Below, one piece after another: positions 1 to 5,994 of a DNA stretch of 39,417 bases. The first letter of the stretch is position 1; each line of letters starts with the position of its first letter. The notes beneath the pieces were generated by a model. It did no database searches, had not been told where the DNA came from, and saw only the letters and a list, made by a program, of their open reading frames with translations. The DNA is taken from the NCBI GenBank assembly GCA_937858825.1, contig CALMAI010000046.1, positions 1 to 39,417 of the forward strand, read 5' to 3'. The stretch is from an uncultured Candidatus Peregrinibacteria bacterium. Its GTDB lineage: Bacteria; Patescibacteriota; Gracilibacteria; UBA1369. The position numbers were made by a program, and so were the translations under genes.

Positions 1-730
1 CATTTTGGGCCTTTTTGTAGTAGCGTTCTACGATCTTTGACTCCTTTTTGTAGTAGTGTTTCTTTTTGCGTTTCACGTTCTTTTTCTAATACTTCTTCAT
101 TAACTTCTGGTAATTCTAATATGTCAGCTATTTCGTTCAGGATTTCTAGCGTCATGATTTTTATGACTCTACCCAAAATCATACCAGCAAAGGCTTTTCC
201 TTTTCCGTATAGAGGAAACCTCTCTTTTTCAAACCATTTTGGGCCTTTTTGTAGTAGCGTTCTACGATCTTTGACTCCTTTTTGTAGTAATGTTTCTTTT
301 TGCGTTTCACGTTCTTTACTTTCATTAATCTTTGGGAATTGCAATATATCGGCGATTTCGTTGAGGGTTTCCAATGTTACCCTTCTGATAATGCGACCTA
401 AAATGGCACCAGCAAAGGCCATTCCTTTTCCGTATGGAGGGAACGTTTCTTTTATAAACCAATCAGAACCTTTTTGCAGCAGTATTCTGCGGTCTTTGAC
501 TCCTTTTTGTAGTAATGCTTCTTTTTGCGTTTCACGTTCTTTTTCCAAGGCATTATTATCAACTTCTGCAAGATTCAAGACATCGGCGATTTCGTTGAGG
601 GTTTCCAACGTTACCCTTCTGATAACGCGACCTAAAATGGCACCAGCAAAGGCCATTCCTTTTCTGCATGGAGGGAATGTTTCTTTCATAAACCATTGTA
701 CCCCTTTCTGAAGGAGCGTCCTCCGATCTG
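1..730 (-). repeat. In-frame coding repeats of about 234 bp in protein B
   Basis: Three full units and the start of a fourth, continuing past the window edge. Bases 1-83 and 235-317 differ at about one position, and the blocks around 415-470 and 650-700 are also alike. The unit length equals that of protein A, so both genes belong to one expanding repeat family. Confidence 0.8.
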
Positions 731-1142
731 AAACTCCTTTCCCCTCTAATATTTCTCGGCAGTGGGCATAAAAAACTTCATTCAGCTGTTCTTTTGCTTC
801 TTCTCGCATTTTATTGATCCGCGCCAACCCTCTACCGAAATATTCATCAACGAGCAGGGGGACTTTGTTGGCTTCGATCATGGCATCGACGGCTTCGCAG
901 AGTACAGGGACTTCATCTGGTAATATTGGCAATTCCTCTTCGTTTCTTTGCTCCTGGAAATCGTTGAGAACTTTTGCCAGTTCAGCCCGAAAGTGTGGGA
1001 CTACAATGGCTTCAACAATTTCCCGCTCTGCTTTCTTTTTGTAAAGCTTGGGCAGTGCTACCATGAACTGCTGGTCGTATTGCGTGACCAATTCTGCAAG
1101 AGAGCTATTAGTCTTTATGTTTTCTTTCTTAGATTTTGGCAT
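1..1142 (-). CDS. Tandem 78-residue repeat protein B (partial, runs off left edge)
   Basis: The frame opens at an ATG at 1142-1140 and stays open to base 1, so the C-terminus is missing. I do not recognise the family. Residues 1-135 closely match the N-terminal domain of the gene just upstream (1153-2913), with the same stretches around SLAELV, KLYKKK, ANKVPLLVDEYFG and NEVFYAHCRE. From about residue 139 come repeats of about 78 residues, at least three complete and the start of a fourth. Each has the pattern R-x-LLQKG, WF, FPPYGKG, AFAGAILGR, then LNEIADIL and a charged KERETQKE linker. The repeats are nearly identical to each other in DNA (bases 1-83 versus 235-317, offset 234). The gene follows its paralogue after a 10-base gap and is probably cotranscribed. 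It looks like a scaffold or binding protein; no catalytic motif is visible. Confidence 0.85.
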   Translation of the reverse strand, partial: MPKSKKENIKTNSSLAELVTQYDQQFMVALPKLYKKKAEREIVEAIVVPHFRAELAKVLNDFQEQRNEEELPILPDEVPVLCEAVDAMIEANKVPLLVDEYFGRGLARINKMREEAKEQLNEVFYAHCREILEGKGVSDRRTLLQKGVQWFMKETFPPCRKGMAFAGAILGRVIRRVTLETLNEIADVLNLAEVDNNALEKERETQKEALLQKGVKDRRILLQKGSDWFIKETFPPYGKGMAFAGAILGRIIRRVTLETLNEIADILQFPKINESKERETQKETLLQKGVKDRRTLLQKGPKWFEKERFPLYGKGKAFAGMILGRVIKIMTLEILNEIADILELPEVNEEVLEKERETQKETLLQKGVKDRRTLLQKGPK

Positions 1143-1152
1143 ATGATTTTCT

Positions 1153-2913
1153 TTAATCTGGTAGTTCCAAAACGTCGGCGATTTCGTTCAGGATTTCTAG
1201 GCTCAGATACCCAGGAGGGCGCCCAAGAATCGCTTTGGCAAAAGCTGATCCCTTTCCATATGGAATAAATACCTCTTTTTTAAACTCTACAGGACCTTTC
1301 TGCAATAATGCTCTTCGACTTGTTATGCCATGATTTACCAGCACTTCACGCTGCCTTTGATGTTCTCCATTTAGTACGCTTTCATTTGTATCCGGCAGCT
1401 CTAAAATGTCAGCTATTTTATTAATAACCTCTATACTTGGGTATTCAACAACATAGCCAAGTATTGCTCCAGCAAAGGCCCCTCCTTTTCCATAGGGGAG
1501 GAATGTCTCTTTTCTAAACCATTCAGATCCTTTCAGGAGTAATGTTCTCCGATCTGTGACTCCATGCTCTGCTAACACTTCACGTTGCTTTTGATGTTCT
1601 TCTTGTAGCACACTTTCATCTGTGTCTGGCAACTCTAAAATGCCAGCTATTTTGCTGAGAAAGTTGGTAGTTATGGCGGAATGCGGAATTCGGGACTGGA
1701 CAATTGCTCCAGCAAAGGCCCCTCCTTTTCCATAGGGGGGAAATGTCTCTTCTCTAAACCATTGAGGTCCTTTCAGGAGTAATGTTCTCCGATCTGTGAC
1801 TCCATGCTCTGCTAACACTTCACGTTGCTTTTGATGTTCTTCTTGTAGCACACTTTCATCTATATCTGGTAACTCTAAAATATCAGCTATTTCACTGAGA
1901 GTCTTTTTACTTATGTTGCTGACGCTTTGCCCCAAAATAGCTCCGGCAAAAGCTGATCCCTTTCCATATGGAATAAATACCTCTTTTTTAAACTCTACAG
2001 GACCTTTCTGCAATAATGCTCTTCGACTTGTTATGCCATGATTTGCCAGCACTTCACGCTGCCTTTGACGTTCTTCTTCTAGTATACTTTCATTTGTATC
2101 CGGCAACTCCAGTATATTGCATATTTCAGTGAGAGTGCTTAGAGTTATAGCAGCACCGACGCTATACCCTAAAATGGATTTTGCAAAAGCTGCACCTTTC
2201 CCATAAGGGGGGAAGGTGCCTTTATAAAACCACAAAGAACCTTTTTGAAGCAATGTTCTCCCATCCATGATTCCTTTTTGTTTCAATACTTCTCTTTGCT
2301 TTTCACGTTCTTCATTTAGGACACTTTCATCTATATCCGGCAATTCTAAAGTAGTGGCTACTTCATTGAGTTTTTCTACCGTTATGTATCCAATGCTACA
2401 CCCTAAAATCAATTTTGCAAAAGCTGCACCTTTCCCATAGGGTGAATATGTTTTCTTCATAAACCACACGGGGCCTTTTTGAAGTAGTGCCTTACGATCC
2501 CAAATTCCTTTTTCCGCCAAAACCTCCCGACAGTGGGCATAAAAAACTTCATTCAACTGCTCCTTTGCTTCCTCTCGCATTTTATTGATCCACGCCAATC
2601 CTTTGCCAAAATATTCGTCCACGAGCAAGGGGACTTTGTTGGCTTCGACCATTGTATCGATGGCTTCGCAGAGCGCGGGGACTTCATCTGGCAACACCGG
2701 CAATTCCGCATCTTTTCTTTGCTCCTGAAAATCCGTGAGAACTTTTGCGAGTTCAGCCCTAAAGTGCGGAATTACAATGGCTTCAACAATTTCTCGCTCT
2801 TCTTTCTTTTTGTAGAGTTTGGGCAAGGATTCCATGAATTCTTGGTCGTACTGCGCGACCAATTCTGCAAGCGATCCTCCTATATTCATGTTTTCTTTCT
2901 TGGCTTTTGCCAT
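1153..2913 (-). CDS. Tandem 78-residue repeat protein A
   Basis: 586 residues, family not recognised. Residues 1-135 form a helical, charged N-terminal domain shared with the next gene. From about residue 139 to the end there are six repeats of 78 residues; the last lacks the linker and the protein ends right after ELPD. The repeat core is LLxKG, a WF or EF pair, an aromatic-PYGKG turn, AFA, ILG, a variable stretch of 5-8 residues, then L-x-E/K-I-A-x-I-LELPD and ESVL. No signal peptide or membrane segment is seen, so it is probably cytoplasmic. It starts 3 bases after the stop of the SNF2 helicase gene, so the two are almost certainly cotranscribed and may work together. The scaffold is conserved while one site varies between repeats, as in modular binding proteins, but the ligand is unknown. 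Confidence 0.88.
   Translation of the reverse strand: MAKAKKENMNIGGSLAELVAQYDQEFMESLPKLYKKKEEREIVEAIVIPHFRAELAKVLTDFQEQRKDAELPVLPDEVPALCEAIDTMVEANKVPLLVDEYFGKGLAWINKMREEAKEQLNEVFYAHCREVLAEKGIWDRKALLQKGPVWFMKKTYSPYGKGAAFAKLILGCSIGYITVEKLNEVATTLELPDIDESVLNEEREKQREVLKQKGIMDGRTLLQKGSLWFYKGTFPPYGKGAAFAKSILGYSVGAAITLSTLTEICNILELPDTNESILEEERQRQREVLANHGITSRRALLQKGPVEFKKEVFIPYGKGSAFAGAILGQSVSNISKKTLSEIADILELPDIDESVLQEEHQKQREVLAEHGVTDRRTLLLKGPQWFREETFPPYGKGGAFAGAIVQSRIPHSAITTNFLSKIAGILELPDTDESVLQEEHQKQREVLAEHGVTDRRTLLLKGSEWFRKETFLPYGKGGAFAGAILGYVVEYPSIEVINKIADILELPDTNESVLNGEHQRQREVLVNHGITSRRALLQKGPVEFKKEVFIPYGKGSAFAKAILGRPPGYLSLEILNEIADVLELPD
1156..2499 (-). repeat. Six in-frame coding repeats of about 234 bp
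   Basis: The repeats encode the 78-residue units of protein A. Some copies are nearly identical in DNA: about 100 bases near 1238-1336 recur at 1946-2044 (offset 708, three units), and about 120 bases near 1500-1620 recur near 1740-1860 (offset 240) with only a few differences. This points to recent duplication or gene conversion inside the gene. Confidence 0.85.
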
Positions 2914-2916
2914 GGA

Positions 2917-5900
2917 CTAAGAAAAGTTAAATTGGATGCCACCGTCTTCATCGAATAGTTCAGGATCCTGGGCGATTCCGTTATTCAGGATTTCGAAACT
3001 TACCCGTTGGGCGGCCAGACGTTGCATTTGTACTTCGTGGTATGTCCCCTGTTTAAACCATTTATCGTAGGCCGTTTCCCCTGTCTCTTCATCAATGACC
3101 ATTTCATCGGTGCTCTCTAAAAATTCCGGGGAGTAGTGGGCAACCATGGTGTAGTATCGAACTTTGTACTTTTTATGTTGCCTGTCCATTCGATGGATGC
3201 GGTCTTCGGCCTGGTACTCTTCTATGGCGTCGGTTGGTATGCCGTCTTTAATCATGAAGTCCGCGGCGGTGAAGGTAACACTCGTCGAACCCGCGGCGTA
3301 GGTACAGAGTGCTATTTTTACATTTTCATCATTTTGGAAAATAAGTCTTTCATAATCCAACGCGAGTATGGGGGCTGAATCTTGATTCCTTCTGGCCACG
3401 ACTGGCCTCCCTTTTTGCAGGATAAAGCTTCCGTATTCATCAACGCGGTACTTGATCTGTTTGCCCTGTCCATTCACTTTGTATCCTTTATTATCCGTTC
3501 CTTTCCCTTTCACCACTTCTCCGTAATAGGTTGCGAATTGAATACCTCTTTCCTCCAAAAGTTCAGCATAATCTTCTACCTGGTTCTGGTATCGACAGAA
3601 AATAATTCCCTTATTTCCACTGGTAAGTTCCCGACCCAGGATGTCCATGACAGCTTCATGCTTTGGTGAAGGCTCCTCGGATCCCACATGTCTGGGGTGG
3701 TTCATCATGTATCGGAGTGCGTGAATTTTGGAAAGTTGGTCGTTGCTTCGACGAAGTCCATCTACTTGAGCTGTTTTTCCTTTGGGCATGTATTCATCAT
3801 ATTCCTTAACCCATTCCTTCCAATCCTCAAACAAGAGCCATATAGCTTCTTCCTGTTCTCGGGTTAGCTGGTAATGTCCGATTCCTGTTTCGATGGGATT
3901 AATATACTCTTTTTGTGGTAACCCCTCCTGCTCATCCAGTGGAATCTCCGGGTCAAATGTCGGCATAACATCCTGCTTTAAGAAACGGATAACGTATTGA
4001 TTCATCATTACGAAAAGAGATTTCATTGCTTCAGGGTCTCCAGAGGGAAAAGCATTGCGGAAGGCTTTTGCATTTTTAAAACGCGCATCGTTTGGAAGAA
4101 CTTTTGCCATTACTTCCCGCACCGCGTCCGGACTGCGCCATGGCGAGGCCGTGAGCAATAAATCGTAATCTCCTGTTAGCTGGCTGTATCCTGCAGACTG
4201 GTGAGATGTGTTCTTTAAAAAGTGTGCTTCATCGATGATTGTAATTCTTTCGCGTTCCGGGTGGTGGCGGCTGTTGAGCGCATTGAACTTTCGATTTGTC
4301 CGTGATTCTTCTTTGTGGCGGATGAATTCAACATTAGCGATAACACCGGGGACACTTCTCCCTTCAATCATGTCTGTACCTCTGACAGTTCCGGATCCTG
4401 CGATATTGGTCAGAAAAGGCTCTCTAAAAAATTTTGCCTGTTCTTCCACCCAGGTTGAAGCGGCCTGATTCGGACAGATAACAATTGGTTCCATGTCATG
4501 CGCTATAGCTAGGGCAGTTACCGTTTTCCCAAGTCCTGGTTCGTTCGCCAGGATGATCGCTCTATTTCCAGCAGCCATCATCTTTTCGGCTTTGTAGATA
4601 CAGTATTTCTGGAAAAACGCCAATTCAACTGGTTTCCCATAGGAGTCTCTTTCTTTTATGAAAGGGTATTGCTGTCGTTGCACTCGTTCAAAGGTTGCCA
4701 ACACTTCATTCAAGCATTGAACTATAATCTGAGAGCCCTTTCCTTTTTGCTGTTTCTTAAGGGCATCAATATATTTAACTCCTTCTTCAAAACTATTCAC
4801 AAAACGCTTAATGGTGGACTCTTCCAAACATCGGACAAAAAGACGTTTTCTTTCTGAATCTCTTCTAAGGTTGGCAATGATATCCTCCGATAAAAGCCGG
4901 AGAAATTCTGTCATTATATCCGTATCATCTTCCGAGGTTTGTCGTATAGAAAAGCTAAGCATAGGTGATTTTCTGACCTTTCCCGCTGTATCCGAAGTAA
5001 GTGATCCATCTACAGCAATAATGCGTATAGTGTTTTGTTGCCCGATTTTTAATGGAATTTTCAGCTCTACCTCCCGTTCTCCATTGACTTTTTTATTGCG
5101 ATTCCAGGGGCCAAAGACCAATAACCGTTGCGTTCCTTCTGGAACGCGTACCGTAAAGCTCGCTCTCTTTTCATCTGTTCTTCGAGGTGGTGTTTCAATG
5201 ATTTTAATCGGATCCAGAGATTCCTTACATTCCTTTACCAGTTCCTCCATATTAGCGTCGGGAGTAGCAATTCCTCCAAAGGCAACCTGAATAATTCTGC
5301 TGTTGGTTTGACTGTCATTAAATCCTCCCAAGTCCAAGAATATCCCCAATTTTTTGGGATCTTTTCCGAGGACAGCAACCGCTTCCTGAAGGTTATTTTC
5401 ATCGATAACATCTTTGGTGTGTTCTACTGCCGCCTCTCTTCTTGCCTCTCTTGAAAGGTTTTCAGCTTCAAATAAACTCTGTAGATCTCGTGGTAACCTC
5501 TCTCTTAATAGTTCCCAGTCGAATTCGTACTCCTCCCCGCATTCCTGCGCTAAAGTAATTTTGAGTGCTTTGTACAGCTCTTTATCCCGGCTACAGATAG
5601 TAGCGGGAGAAAATGGCTGTCCCTTTTCAAGGATAGATTTCAGTTGGGAAAGAAGAAAACTCCATTTAATAGACCGGCGTTGACTTAGAATTTCCTCTTT
5701 AAGGTTCGGGATACCAATGTTTTGCAGAACGCTGTCCGCGTGGACAAGTTTGGTATTGTCGAGTTCAAAACAAATATTATTGATGTTCTCCACCGTAATA
5801 CTATCTTCAGAAAAGGTCTCCAAAACGGTAAAGATTGCTTTACGGGTTGATTGCAGAACCACTTTGGCTAAATGCTTTTTTTTGTGAGGAACCTGATCCA

Positions 5901-5994
5901 ACATCTCTGCTATGTGCTGATCAATTTGTCCTTCAATATGAGTAAATTTCATGGTTCCTTCCAATTGAGGCATAAAAGGAGCGTATTTTGCCAT
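2917..5994 (-). CDS. SNF2-family (SF2) helicase/ATPase with novel N-terminal region
   Basis: 1025 residues. The ATPase core is clear: Walker A NEPGLGKT (about 484-491), motif Ia-like ICPNQAASTW, DEAH box (588-591), motif III LLLTASPW, and motif VI QAEDRIHRMDRQ (about 928-939) with an arginine finger. SNF2 enzymes translocate on double-stranded DNA and remodel DNA-protein complexes. The first 460 residues are unusual: a helical region, then a beta-rich, carbohydrate-binding-module-like stretch (about 275-352), then another helical part. No nuclease or methylase motif is visible. The annotated ATG has no SD; an internal ATG at codon 15 follows an AAGGA run and is a possible alternative. The gene leads an operon with two repeat proteins. 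Its length, N-terminus and partners differ from housekeeping RapA, so a defence or chromatin-like role is possible but unproven. Confidence 0.92.
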   Translation of the reverse strand: MAKYAPFMPQLEGTMKFTHIEGQIDQHIAEMLDQVPHKKKHLAKVVLQSTRKAIFTVLETFSEDSITVENINNICFELDNTKLVHADSVLQNIGIPNLKEEILSQRRSIKWSFLLSQLKSILEKGQPFSPATICSRDKELYKALKITLAQECGEEYEFDWELLRERLPRDLQSLFEAENLSREARREAAVEHTKDVIDENNLQEAVAVLGKDPKKLGIFLDLGGFNDSQTNSRIIQVAFGGIATPDANMEELVKECKESLDPIKIIETPPRRTDEKRASFTVRVPEGTQRLLVFGPWNRNKKVNGEREVELKIPLKIGQQNTIRIIAVDGSLTSDTAGKVRKSPMLSFSIRQTSEDDTDIMTEFLRLLSEDIIANLRRDSERKRLFVRCLEESTIKRFVNSFEEGVKYIDALKKQQKGKGSQIIVQCLNEVLATFERVQRQQYPFIKERDSYGKPVELAFFQKYCIYKAEKMMAAGNRAIILANEPGLGKTVTALAIAHDMEPIVICPNQAASTWVEEQAKFFREPFLTNIAGSGTVRGTDMIEGRSVPGVIANVEFIRHKEESRTNRKFNALNSRHHPERERITIIDEAHFLKNTSHQSAGYSQLTGDYDLLLTASPWRSPDAVREVMAKVLPNDARFKNAKAFRNAFPSGDPEAMKSLFVMMNQYVIRFLKQDVMPTFDPEIPLDEQEGLPQKEYINPIETGIGHYQLTREQEEAIWLLFEDWKEWVKEYDEYMPKGKTAQVDGLRRSNDQLSKIHALRYMMNHPRHVGSEEPSPKHEAVMDILGRELTSGNKGIIFCRYQNQVEDYAELLEERGIQFATYYGEVVKGKGTDNKGYKVNGQGKQIKYRVDEYGSFILQKGRPVVARRNQDSAPILALDYERLIFQNDENVKIALCTYAAGSTSVTFTAADFMIKDGIPTDAIEEYQAEDRIHRMDRQHKKYKVRYYTMVAHYSPEFLESTDEMVIDEETGETAYDKWFKQGTYHEVQMQRLAAQRVSFEILNNGIAQDPELFDEDGGIQFNFS

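Follow-up and report, generated by a model that had tools for sequence, protein, structure and literature searches.

An operon of a tiny uncultured groundwater bacterium, whose genome amounts to 1.32 Mb in 46 contigs, encodes a SNF2-type ATPase followed directly by two proteins composed of tandem repeat units, and looks like a motor system not described so far, in which an exchangeable reading array selects the target. The best explanation of the observations described below, and one that is probably correct, is that SF2 motors acting on double-stranded DNA are aimed by exchangeable nucleic-acid-reading arrays which are either present in cis or docked via N-terminal domains. A search of the open-access literature found no paper on the motor-array system, and two surveys of repeat proteins are silent on it.

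The operon and its proteins

The window, by which we mean the whole stretch of DNA that was analysed (39,417 nucleotides), is the entire contig C46 of the window genome, G000. The operon lies at the contig end on the minus strand, and in the list of open reading frames the ATPase is followed after 3 bases by the first array protein, R1, which is followed after 10 bases by the second, R2 (Table 1). R2 is open at the contig edge, so that the window contains three of its units in complete form and the beginning of a fourth. The end of a second contig of the same genome, C17, encodes R2 residues that are missing from C46 on the side of window positions 1-44, including one complete unit, and it is very likely that the two contigs join inside R2, where the assembly broke because the units are near-identical; R2 thus has at least five units. 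Beyond the operon, C17 encodes by open-reading-frame content a convergent small gene, a Mrp/ParA ATPase-like gene and an S-layer protein-like gene, with nothing recognisably defensive on that side.

Table 1. Positions of the operon's genes, domains and repeat units (window coordinates unless a contig is named)
Feature	Position	Strand	Basis
SNF2-type SF2 ATPase, 1025 aa, first gene of the operon	2917..5994	-	ORF, Pfam
ATPase N-terminal helical domain, weakly similar to the array-protein N-terminal domain	5620..5952	-	alignment, hhalign
SF2 motor core (Walker A GLGKT, DEAH, LLTASP, QAEDRIHR; kept in the relatives)	3097..4569, boundaries approximate	-	Pfam, alignment
R1 array protein, N-terminal domain and six type-A units, 586 aa	1153..2913	-	ORF, unit HMM, AlphaFold
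R1 N-terminal domain, predicted helical bundle, pI 4.9	2509..2913	-	alignment, AlphaFold
R1 unit 1	2275..2508	-	unit HMM
R1 unit 2	2038..2274	-	unit HMM
R1 unit 3, 93 bp exactly in common with unit 6	1804..2037	-	unit HMM
R1 unit 4	1564..1803	-	unit HMM
R1 unit 5, modelled as a single unit, pLDDT 87	1330..1563	-	unit HMM, AlphaFold
R1 unit 6, last unit, 58 aa	1156..1329	-	unit HMM
R2, second array protein, open at the contig edge	3..1142	-	ORF
R2 N-terminal domain	738..1142	-	80% identity to that of R1
R2 units 1-3 (737-504, 503-279, 278-45); unit 4 starts at 44	45..737	-	unit HMM
R2 C-terminal 98 aa	G000:C17:4832-5128 (L015)	-	end of contig C17

The assignment of the ATPase to the SNF2-type SF2 enzymes rests on two Pfam domains that score above their curated cut-offs, SNF2-rel_dom (PF00176; 55.5 bits, cut-off 24.9) and Helicase_C (PF00271; 33.8 bits, cut-off 23.5), together with the presence of the Walker A and B motifs and motif VI. 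GLGKT and DEAH are shared with the homologue in genome G051, and motif VI is kept in three genomes. Like other members of the SNF2 family, the enzyme is a two-lobed SF2 motor with every core motif, and its nearest solved structures are Fft3, ISW1 and a Sulfolobus Rad54-like protein; unlike them, it has an N-terminal region of about 460 residues that belongs to no family, and it shares an operon with two array proteins. The core, which in PHROGs matches general phage DNA helicases, is the sole part of the operon that Pfam, NCBIfam and PADLOC recognised. Ahead of the core, at about residues 285-365 (window 4900-5142, minus strand), the SFTVRVPEGTQRLLVFGPWNRNKKVNGEREVELKIPL stretch resembles a small beta-sandwich domain, and a family search with it returned no match.

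The first-pass annotation of this DNA agrees with the detailed searches in most of its particulars. It had placed two paralogous repeat proteins 3 and 10 bases behind a SNF2-type ATPase, and the open reading frames reproduce these gaps exactly, with the ATPase intact; the 460-residue N-terminus that it could not place indeed matches no family. The repeats of about 78 residues that it described are found in R1 as six units, 75-80 aa long except for the last (58 aa), each of which scores 76-99 bits against the unit profile, and the N-terminal domain that it regarded as common to R1 and R2 is 135 aa long and 80% identical between them. The faint likeness that it had noticed between this domain and the N-terminus of the ATPase is weak, yet stronger than chance would give (hhalign P 6e-4 to 1.3e-3; none of 150 shuffled profiles reached the score). 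Its statement that no methylase, nuclease or known defence partner is present holds true for the operon by Pfam, NCBIfam and PADLOC and for the C17 side by open-reading-frame content, and the repeat unit, whose resemblance to a known unrelated family would have spoken against its proposal, matches none. No library names the repeat unit (type A) or the N-terminal domain of R1 and R2, and a sequence search of the PDB likewise matched neither. The N-terminal domains in the window are acidic and the R1 array, with a pI of 6.2, is not basic; the repeats of R2 have a pI of 9.7, and the second array protein of G051, taken whole, one of 9.3.

Exchange of arrays behind a conserved motor

Among 59 genomes of the order and its relatives, the ATPase was detected beyond the window genome only in G051, and a further homologue was found later in G451; no other searched genome yielded it. 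These genomes match the Candidatus Peregrinibacteria metagenome-assembled genomes JACPMA010000005 (G051) and JAHFJU010000025 (G451). The G051 homologue is 43-44% identical to the window ATPase, and the G451 homologue, which is split between contigs C89 and C79 with the overlap residues EKLKRG, is 51% identical across the C-terminal half; the gene is absent from the sister genome G001 and from the remaining family members searched. In all three genomes that have the ATPase, two genes with the same N-terminal domain lie directly behind it, but in G451 these two genes carry units of about 93 aa (type B) instead of type A. A common origin of the two unit types finds no support, there being no detectable homology between them (hhalign P 0.11). 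The N-terminal domain and the motor therefore stay while the array changes.

By sequence, the operon appears to sit among housekeeping-like genes in each of the three genomes: in G451 it has trmD-, rpsI- and rplM-like neighbours, in G051 endonuclease III- and PNPase-like ones, and in the window rnc- and nusB-like ones.

Recurrent linkage of arrays to SF2 enzymes

Across the 353 genomes of a class-wide search, type-A units occur in 14, type-B units in 19 and the window-type N-terminal domain in 6, one of the last hits being marginal and short. Fusions of ResIII-type SF2 helicases with type-A units are present in G015 (892 aa) and G661 (769 aa) and with type-B units in G029 (972 aa), G598 (839 aa) and G505, and in the last of these the fusion (L167:5614-9036; about 1,100 aa, with a ResIII helicase and five type-B units) opens only if TGA is read as glycine. 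The helicases of G015, G661, G029 and G598 are interrelated (E 1e-4 to 1e-133) and the G505 fragment is homologous too; arrays have thus been swapped on two motor chassis, the SNF2-type and the ResIII-type. G422 and G642 each have a ResIII helicase gene that overlaps a gene whose type-A units are flanked by HTH-like stretches. In G690 a divergent SF2 gene, recognised as such from sequence motifs and a weak helicase match in PHROGs, with none in Pfam, overlaps by one base the gene of a protein that combines five type-A units with one of type B and an HTH-like stretch.

Counted over all loci with at least two type-A units, an SF2 helicase is fused or adjacent in 7 of 12, and by a rough estimate an SF2 neighbour would occur by chance in a few per cent. 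The other five loci (G051 contig C9, G680, G683, G686 and G694) have no adjacent helicase, nor do most type-B loci, and a strict pairing of array and helicase is accordingly rejected. A TRCF/Mfd helicase near the G678 array is a housekeeping gene and was left uncounted. The outcome that the first-pass annotation named as refuting, repeat genes mostly without the helicase, is thus partly borne out for the repeats but not for the helicase, which had two array proteins behind it in three genomes of three. The proposal of the annotation, a DNA-remodelling machine with modular recognition subunits, is partly supported and is the reading that the relatives favour most, through the constant company that the helicase keeps with arrays, the array swaps and the SF2 fusions.

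Array proteins without a helicase domain also share N-terminal domains with one another or with a helicase. The helicase-array fusion of G029 and a separate eight-unit array protein of the same genome have 84 N-terminal residues in common (61% identity, E 4e-34), and array proteins on two contigs of G690 share another N-terminal domain (51%). Assembly through shared N-terminal domains would be the natural reading of these sequences. A further common N-terminal domain (NMMRKTSYTIIEIPRLNREILVCDQVGEGTFVIYG), with no helicase attached, is present in the type-B array proteins at L155:6696-8363, L156:8571-10886 and L161:7297-10563.

Variable positions within the units

The positions at which type-A units vary are the same across genomes: 3, 6, 10, 14, 17, 28, the loop 38-41, and 44-48. 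Four of the positions 3, 6, 10, 14 and 17 fall on one face of the first helix of the unit. The variable positions were cross-validated by picking them without the genome under test, and at these positions pN/pS was 1.5-2.5 times that at the other positions in every genome tested. In the window the values were 0.65 and 0.29 respectively, and 1 of 2000 random position sets was as extreme; elsewhere at most 11 of 2000 draws were, with the exception of the type-B units of G598 (292 of 2000). By this cross-validated measure the arrays consist of conserved units with a few hypervariable positions, as do DNA-binding tandem-repeat proteins. Positive selection was considered and rejected, as pN/pS exceeds 1 only in G598, where a type-B position set that was in part picked from these data gives 2.2, and by a narrow margin (1.02-1.06) in two more genomes with type B. 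The pattern would fit a recognition surface, and exposed residues under relaxed constraint could look alike. R1 units 3 and 6 contain 93 identical bases, from which it follows that units have been copied recently.

Predicted fold of the type-A unit

For the type-A unit a helical structure is predicted with confidence, and it has no clear counterpart among known folds. AlphaFold models of full-length R1 and of a single unit (from 20 aligned units) have pLDDT values of 81.5 and 87.1, the latter with most of the core at 93-96 and a pTM of 0.72, and the predicted unit opens with a leading helix and a second helix of 14 residues, after which a tight hairpin at F.PYGKG precedes a short helix and a final one. 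Foldseek searches of the PDB, whether with the whole of R1 or with a single unit, and a structure search of BFVD, returned nothing with E <= 0.001. With VIA-align the N-terminal helical bundle reached a best Z of 5.2, which is unspecific, and the unit aligned to the Oct4 POU-specific domain with a Z of 2.6 (48 residues at 3.3 A; 14 chains compared).

A lambda-repressor-like origin of the unit is possible. R2 as a whole matches the Cro/C1-type HTH family (PF13443) at 23.7 bits, against a cut-off of 22, and a G690 array protein does so at 30.9; the unit profile aligns to this family with P 5e-5 to 1.6e-4 over its last 18-19 residues, a score exceeded by 1 of 200 shuffles. The unit resembles the HTH domain in the last helix of each, but no single unit passes the cut-off, the alignment covers 18-23 residues, and a hairpin stands in the place of helix 2. 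Reading the segment YGKGxAFAxxIL as a helix-hairpin-helix (PF14520) was rejected, since the profile scored 7.9 over 1 column against 30 such domains, below shuffles. Two points, the lack of an established DNA-binding fold and the R1 array that is not basic, count against arrays that read DNA. The second array protein, which is basic in the window and in G051, speaks in favour, as do the acidic N-terminal domains beside it in the window.

Proposed mechanism

We suggest that the ATPase acts as a double-stranded-DNA motor and that R1 and R2 serve as adaptors, in each of which an N-terminal docking domain is joined to a string of recognition units. Nucleic acid, most likely duplex DNA, would be what the arrays read; they are cast as readers because the scaffold of the unit is fixed while a set of positions differs between units. 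Docking of the adaptors on the motor through their N-terminal domains would load the ATPase at chosen sites, where it might translocate or strip proteins. In the relatives the same job would be done in cis, by an SF2 helicase and an array in one chain, or with type-B repeats, and the cell would gain either an accessory function against invaders or site-specific control of its chromosome. The sequences show the gene order and its retention in three genomes, the array swaps, the recurrent link to SF2 motors, the N-terminal domain shared in G029 and the fixed set of variable positions; DNA as the ligand, docking, motor activity in the cell and the benefit to it are inferred. The loci without a neighbouring helicase and the weakness of the N-terminal similarity between ATPase and array proteins in the window itself count against the proposal.

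Comparison with known systems

In Type I restriction the HsdR motor is accompanied by a separate modular specificity subunit, HsdS. The present system may be likened to this in concept, with a modular specificity protein that is separate from the SF2 motor and aims it, but it differs in having no methylase, nuclease or HsdS domains and in having a tandem array as its specificity part; neither Pfam nor NCBIfam detected a methylase or nuclease domain in any of the three operon genes, and Type I restriction-modification was therefore rejected. DISARM, Dpd, Zorya and PbeABCD were also rejected: the NCBIfam models DrmD and DpdE score 20.2 and 13.6 bits against cut-offs of 610 and 500, the PADLOC hits are partial, and the operon contains none of the partner genes.

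TALE repeats are about 33-35 aa long, with two helices and an RVD. A TALE or TALE-like assignment was rejected on the grounds that the present units are 75-80 aa long, are predicted to have four helices and a hairpin, and have no Pfam TALE match. The motor-array system lacks the tested defining features of both Type I restriction and TALE. The DNA-binding tandem-repeat families TALE, BurrH, STAR, pTERF and MOON have been described (PMC11417379, PMC4066763), the former paper leaving candidate phyla unmentioned and containing 'helicase' as a keyword only. In common with these families the arrays have tandem units with a fixed scaffold and few hypervariable positions, and the units of pTERF are three-helix; the arrays differ in that their units are 75-80 or about 93 aa long and are partnered with or fused to SF2 motors (STAR, pTERF and MOON being set apart by their descriptions), and in that we infer DNA binding here. 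Some SF2 helicases carry C-terminal Helicase-associated repeats (PF03457) of roughly 70-90 aa, an arrangement which the fusions of G015, G661, G029, G598 and G505 share in being an SF2 core followed by repeats. This domain was rejected as an explanation, as Pfam found no match to it in any protein scanned.

Possible roles and ligands

The proposed mechanism admits two narrower forms. In one, the arrays recognise incoming DNA of phages or plasmids, which the motor then blocks or dismantles, much as in restriction by a motor and a specificity subunit, without methylation. Such a role in defence is plausible given the patchy occurrence of the system, missing from the sister genome and from other searched family members, and the turnover of the array that the recent duplication in R1 reveals, and we regard it as a serious possibility which nevertheless falls short of an even chance. 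It draws further support from weak local matches to the defence helicases PbeA, DpdE, ZorD and DrmD, from a type-B array protein of G649 whose C-terminal D...ExK-like motif may mark a nuclease, and from the high density of defence systems reported in groundwater candidate-phyla bacteria (PMC12259885). It is weakened by the absence of nuclease, methylase and toxin from the operon, by neighbours that are housekeeping-like by sequence and form no defence island, by the generic nature of the SF2 helicase similarity, and by the want of any family or structure match for the G649 nuclease guess. Phage and plasmid records, moreover, yielded no relative of R1; in IMG/VR array relatives were absent, and the ATPase query retrieved one generic SNF2 match at 28% identity.

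In the other narrower form, which is possible but doubtful, the arrays bind fixed sites in the genome of the cell itself, at which the ATPase moves proteins to new positions, in the control of transcription or of the nucleoid. The similarity of the ATPase to SNF2 remodellers, the housekeeping neighbourhood and the HTH-like domains of some array proteins are consistent with this, and the array proteins without helicases could be ordinary regulators. Recent array turnover tells against it, and almost all close relatives lack the system, which makes a core role in the chromosome less likely.

It is unlikely that the arrays bind proteins, as a scaffold or receptor, and that the helicase link is incidental: some array loci do lack a helicase, the R1 array is neutral and single units occur in methyltransferase-like proteins, but fusions and overlaps of arrays recur with at least three different SF2 lineages. 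RNA as the ligand of the arrays, with SF2 enzymes that work on RNA or RNA-DNA hybrids, is improbable, for while helical repeat arrays often bind RNA and ResIII-type enzymes may have several substrates, the window enzyme is of the SNF2 type, a family of double-stranded-DNA translocases, and partners with HTH-like domains suggest DNA.

If the arrays read DNA, they would constitute a new modular family of binding proteins that is naturally coupled to ATP-driven motors, and possibly a new targetable DNA-binding scaffold. The bacteria that have them often lack CRISPR, and such arrays would offer a testable answer to the question of how reduced cells of this kind aim SF2 enzymes without methylation or a guide RNA. 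There is a real chance that a new targeting principle is involved. The fullest version of this idea, that two unrelated and interchangeable repeat classes (A, 75-80 aa; B, about 93 aa) make up sequence-reading arrays directing SF2 motors to chosen DNA sites in candidate-phyla bacteria, with units and motors freely recombined in cis or by docking as a new programmable principle, is put forward tentatively and is on balance unlikely. Whatever the ligand, the two repeat families and the docking domains are missing from the searched libraries and deserve names.

Other array architectures

Several further arrangements were noted in the survey. Six type-B units in the G649 protein (L158:7405-10419, plus strand) precede a C-terminal region with RADFKVGETIYEVKWG, which resembles the PD-(D/E)xK nuclease motif; family and structure searches with this putative nuclease region gave no match. 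A single type-A-like unit occurs within a large methyltransferase-like protein (IYDFGVGTGKKGEI motif) in G031 (L021:3-1952) and in G057 (L033:5972-7900), and a 590-aa Rossmann/methyltransferase-like protein with no Pfam match (L020:11871-13643) is encoded upstream of the helicase-array pair of G422. Type-B arrays are also present in G528 (L166), which, like G505, reads TGA as glycine (code 25), as in code-25 Gracilibacteria. In G680 (L066:5923-14492), where no helicase was found within the 31 kb read, each of five consecutive genes encodes 4-8 type-A units and a window-type N-terminal domain, which one of the five proteins has at both ends.
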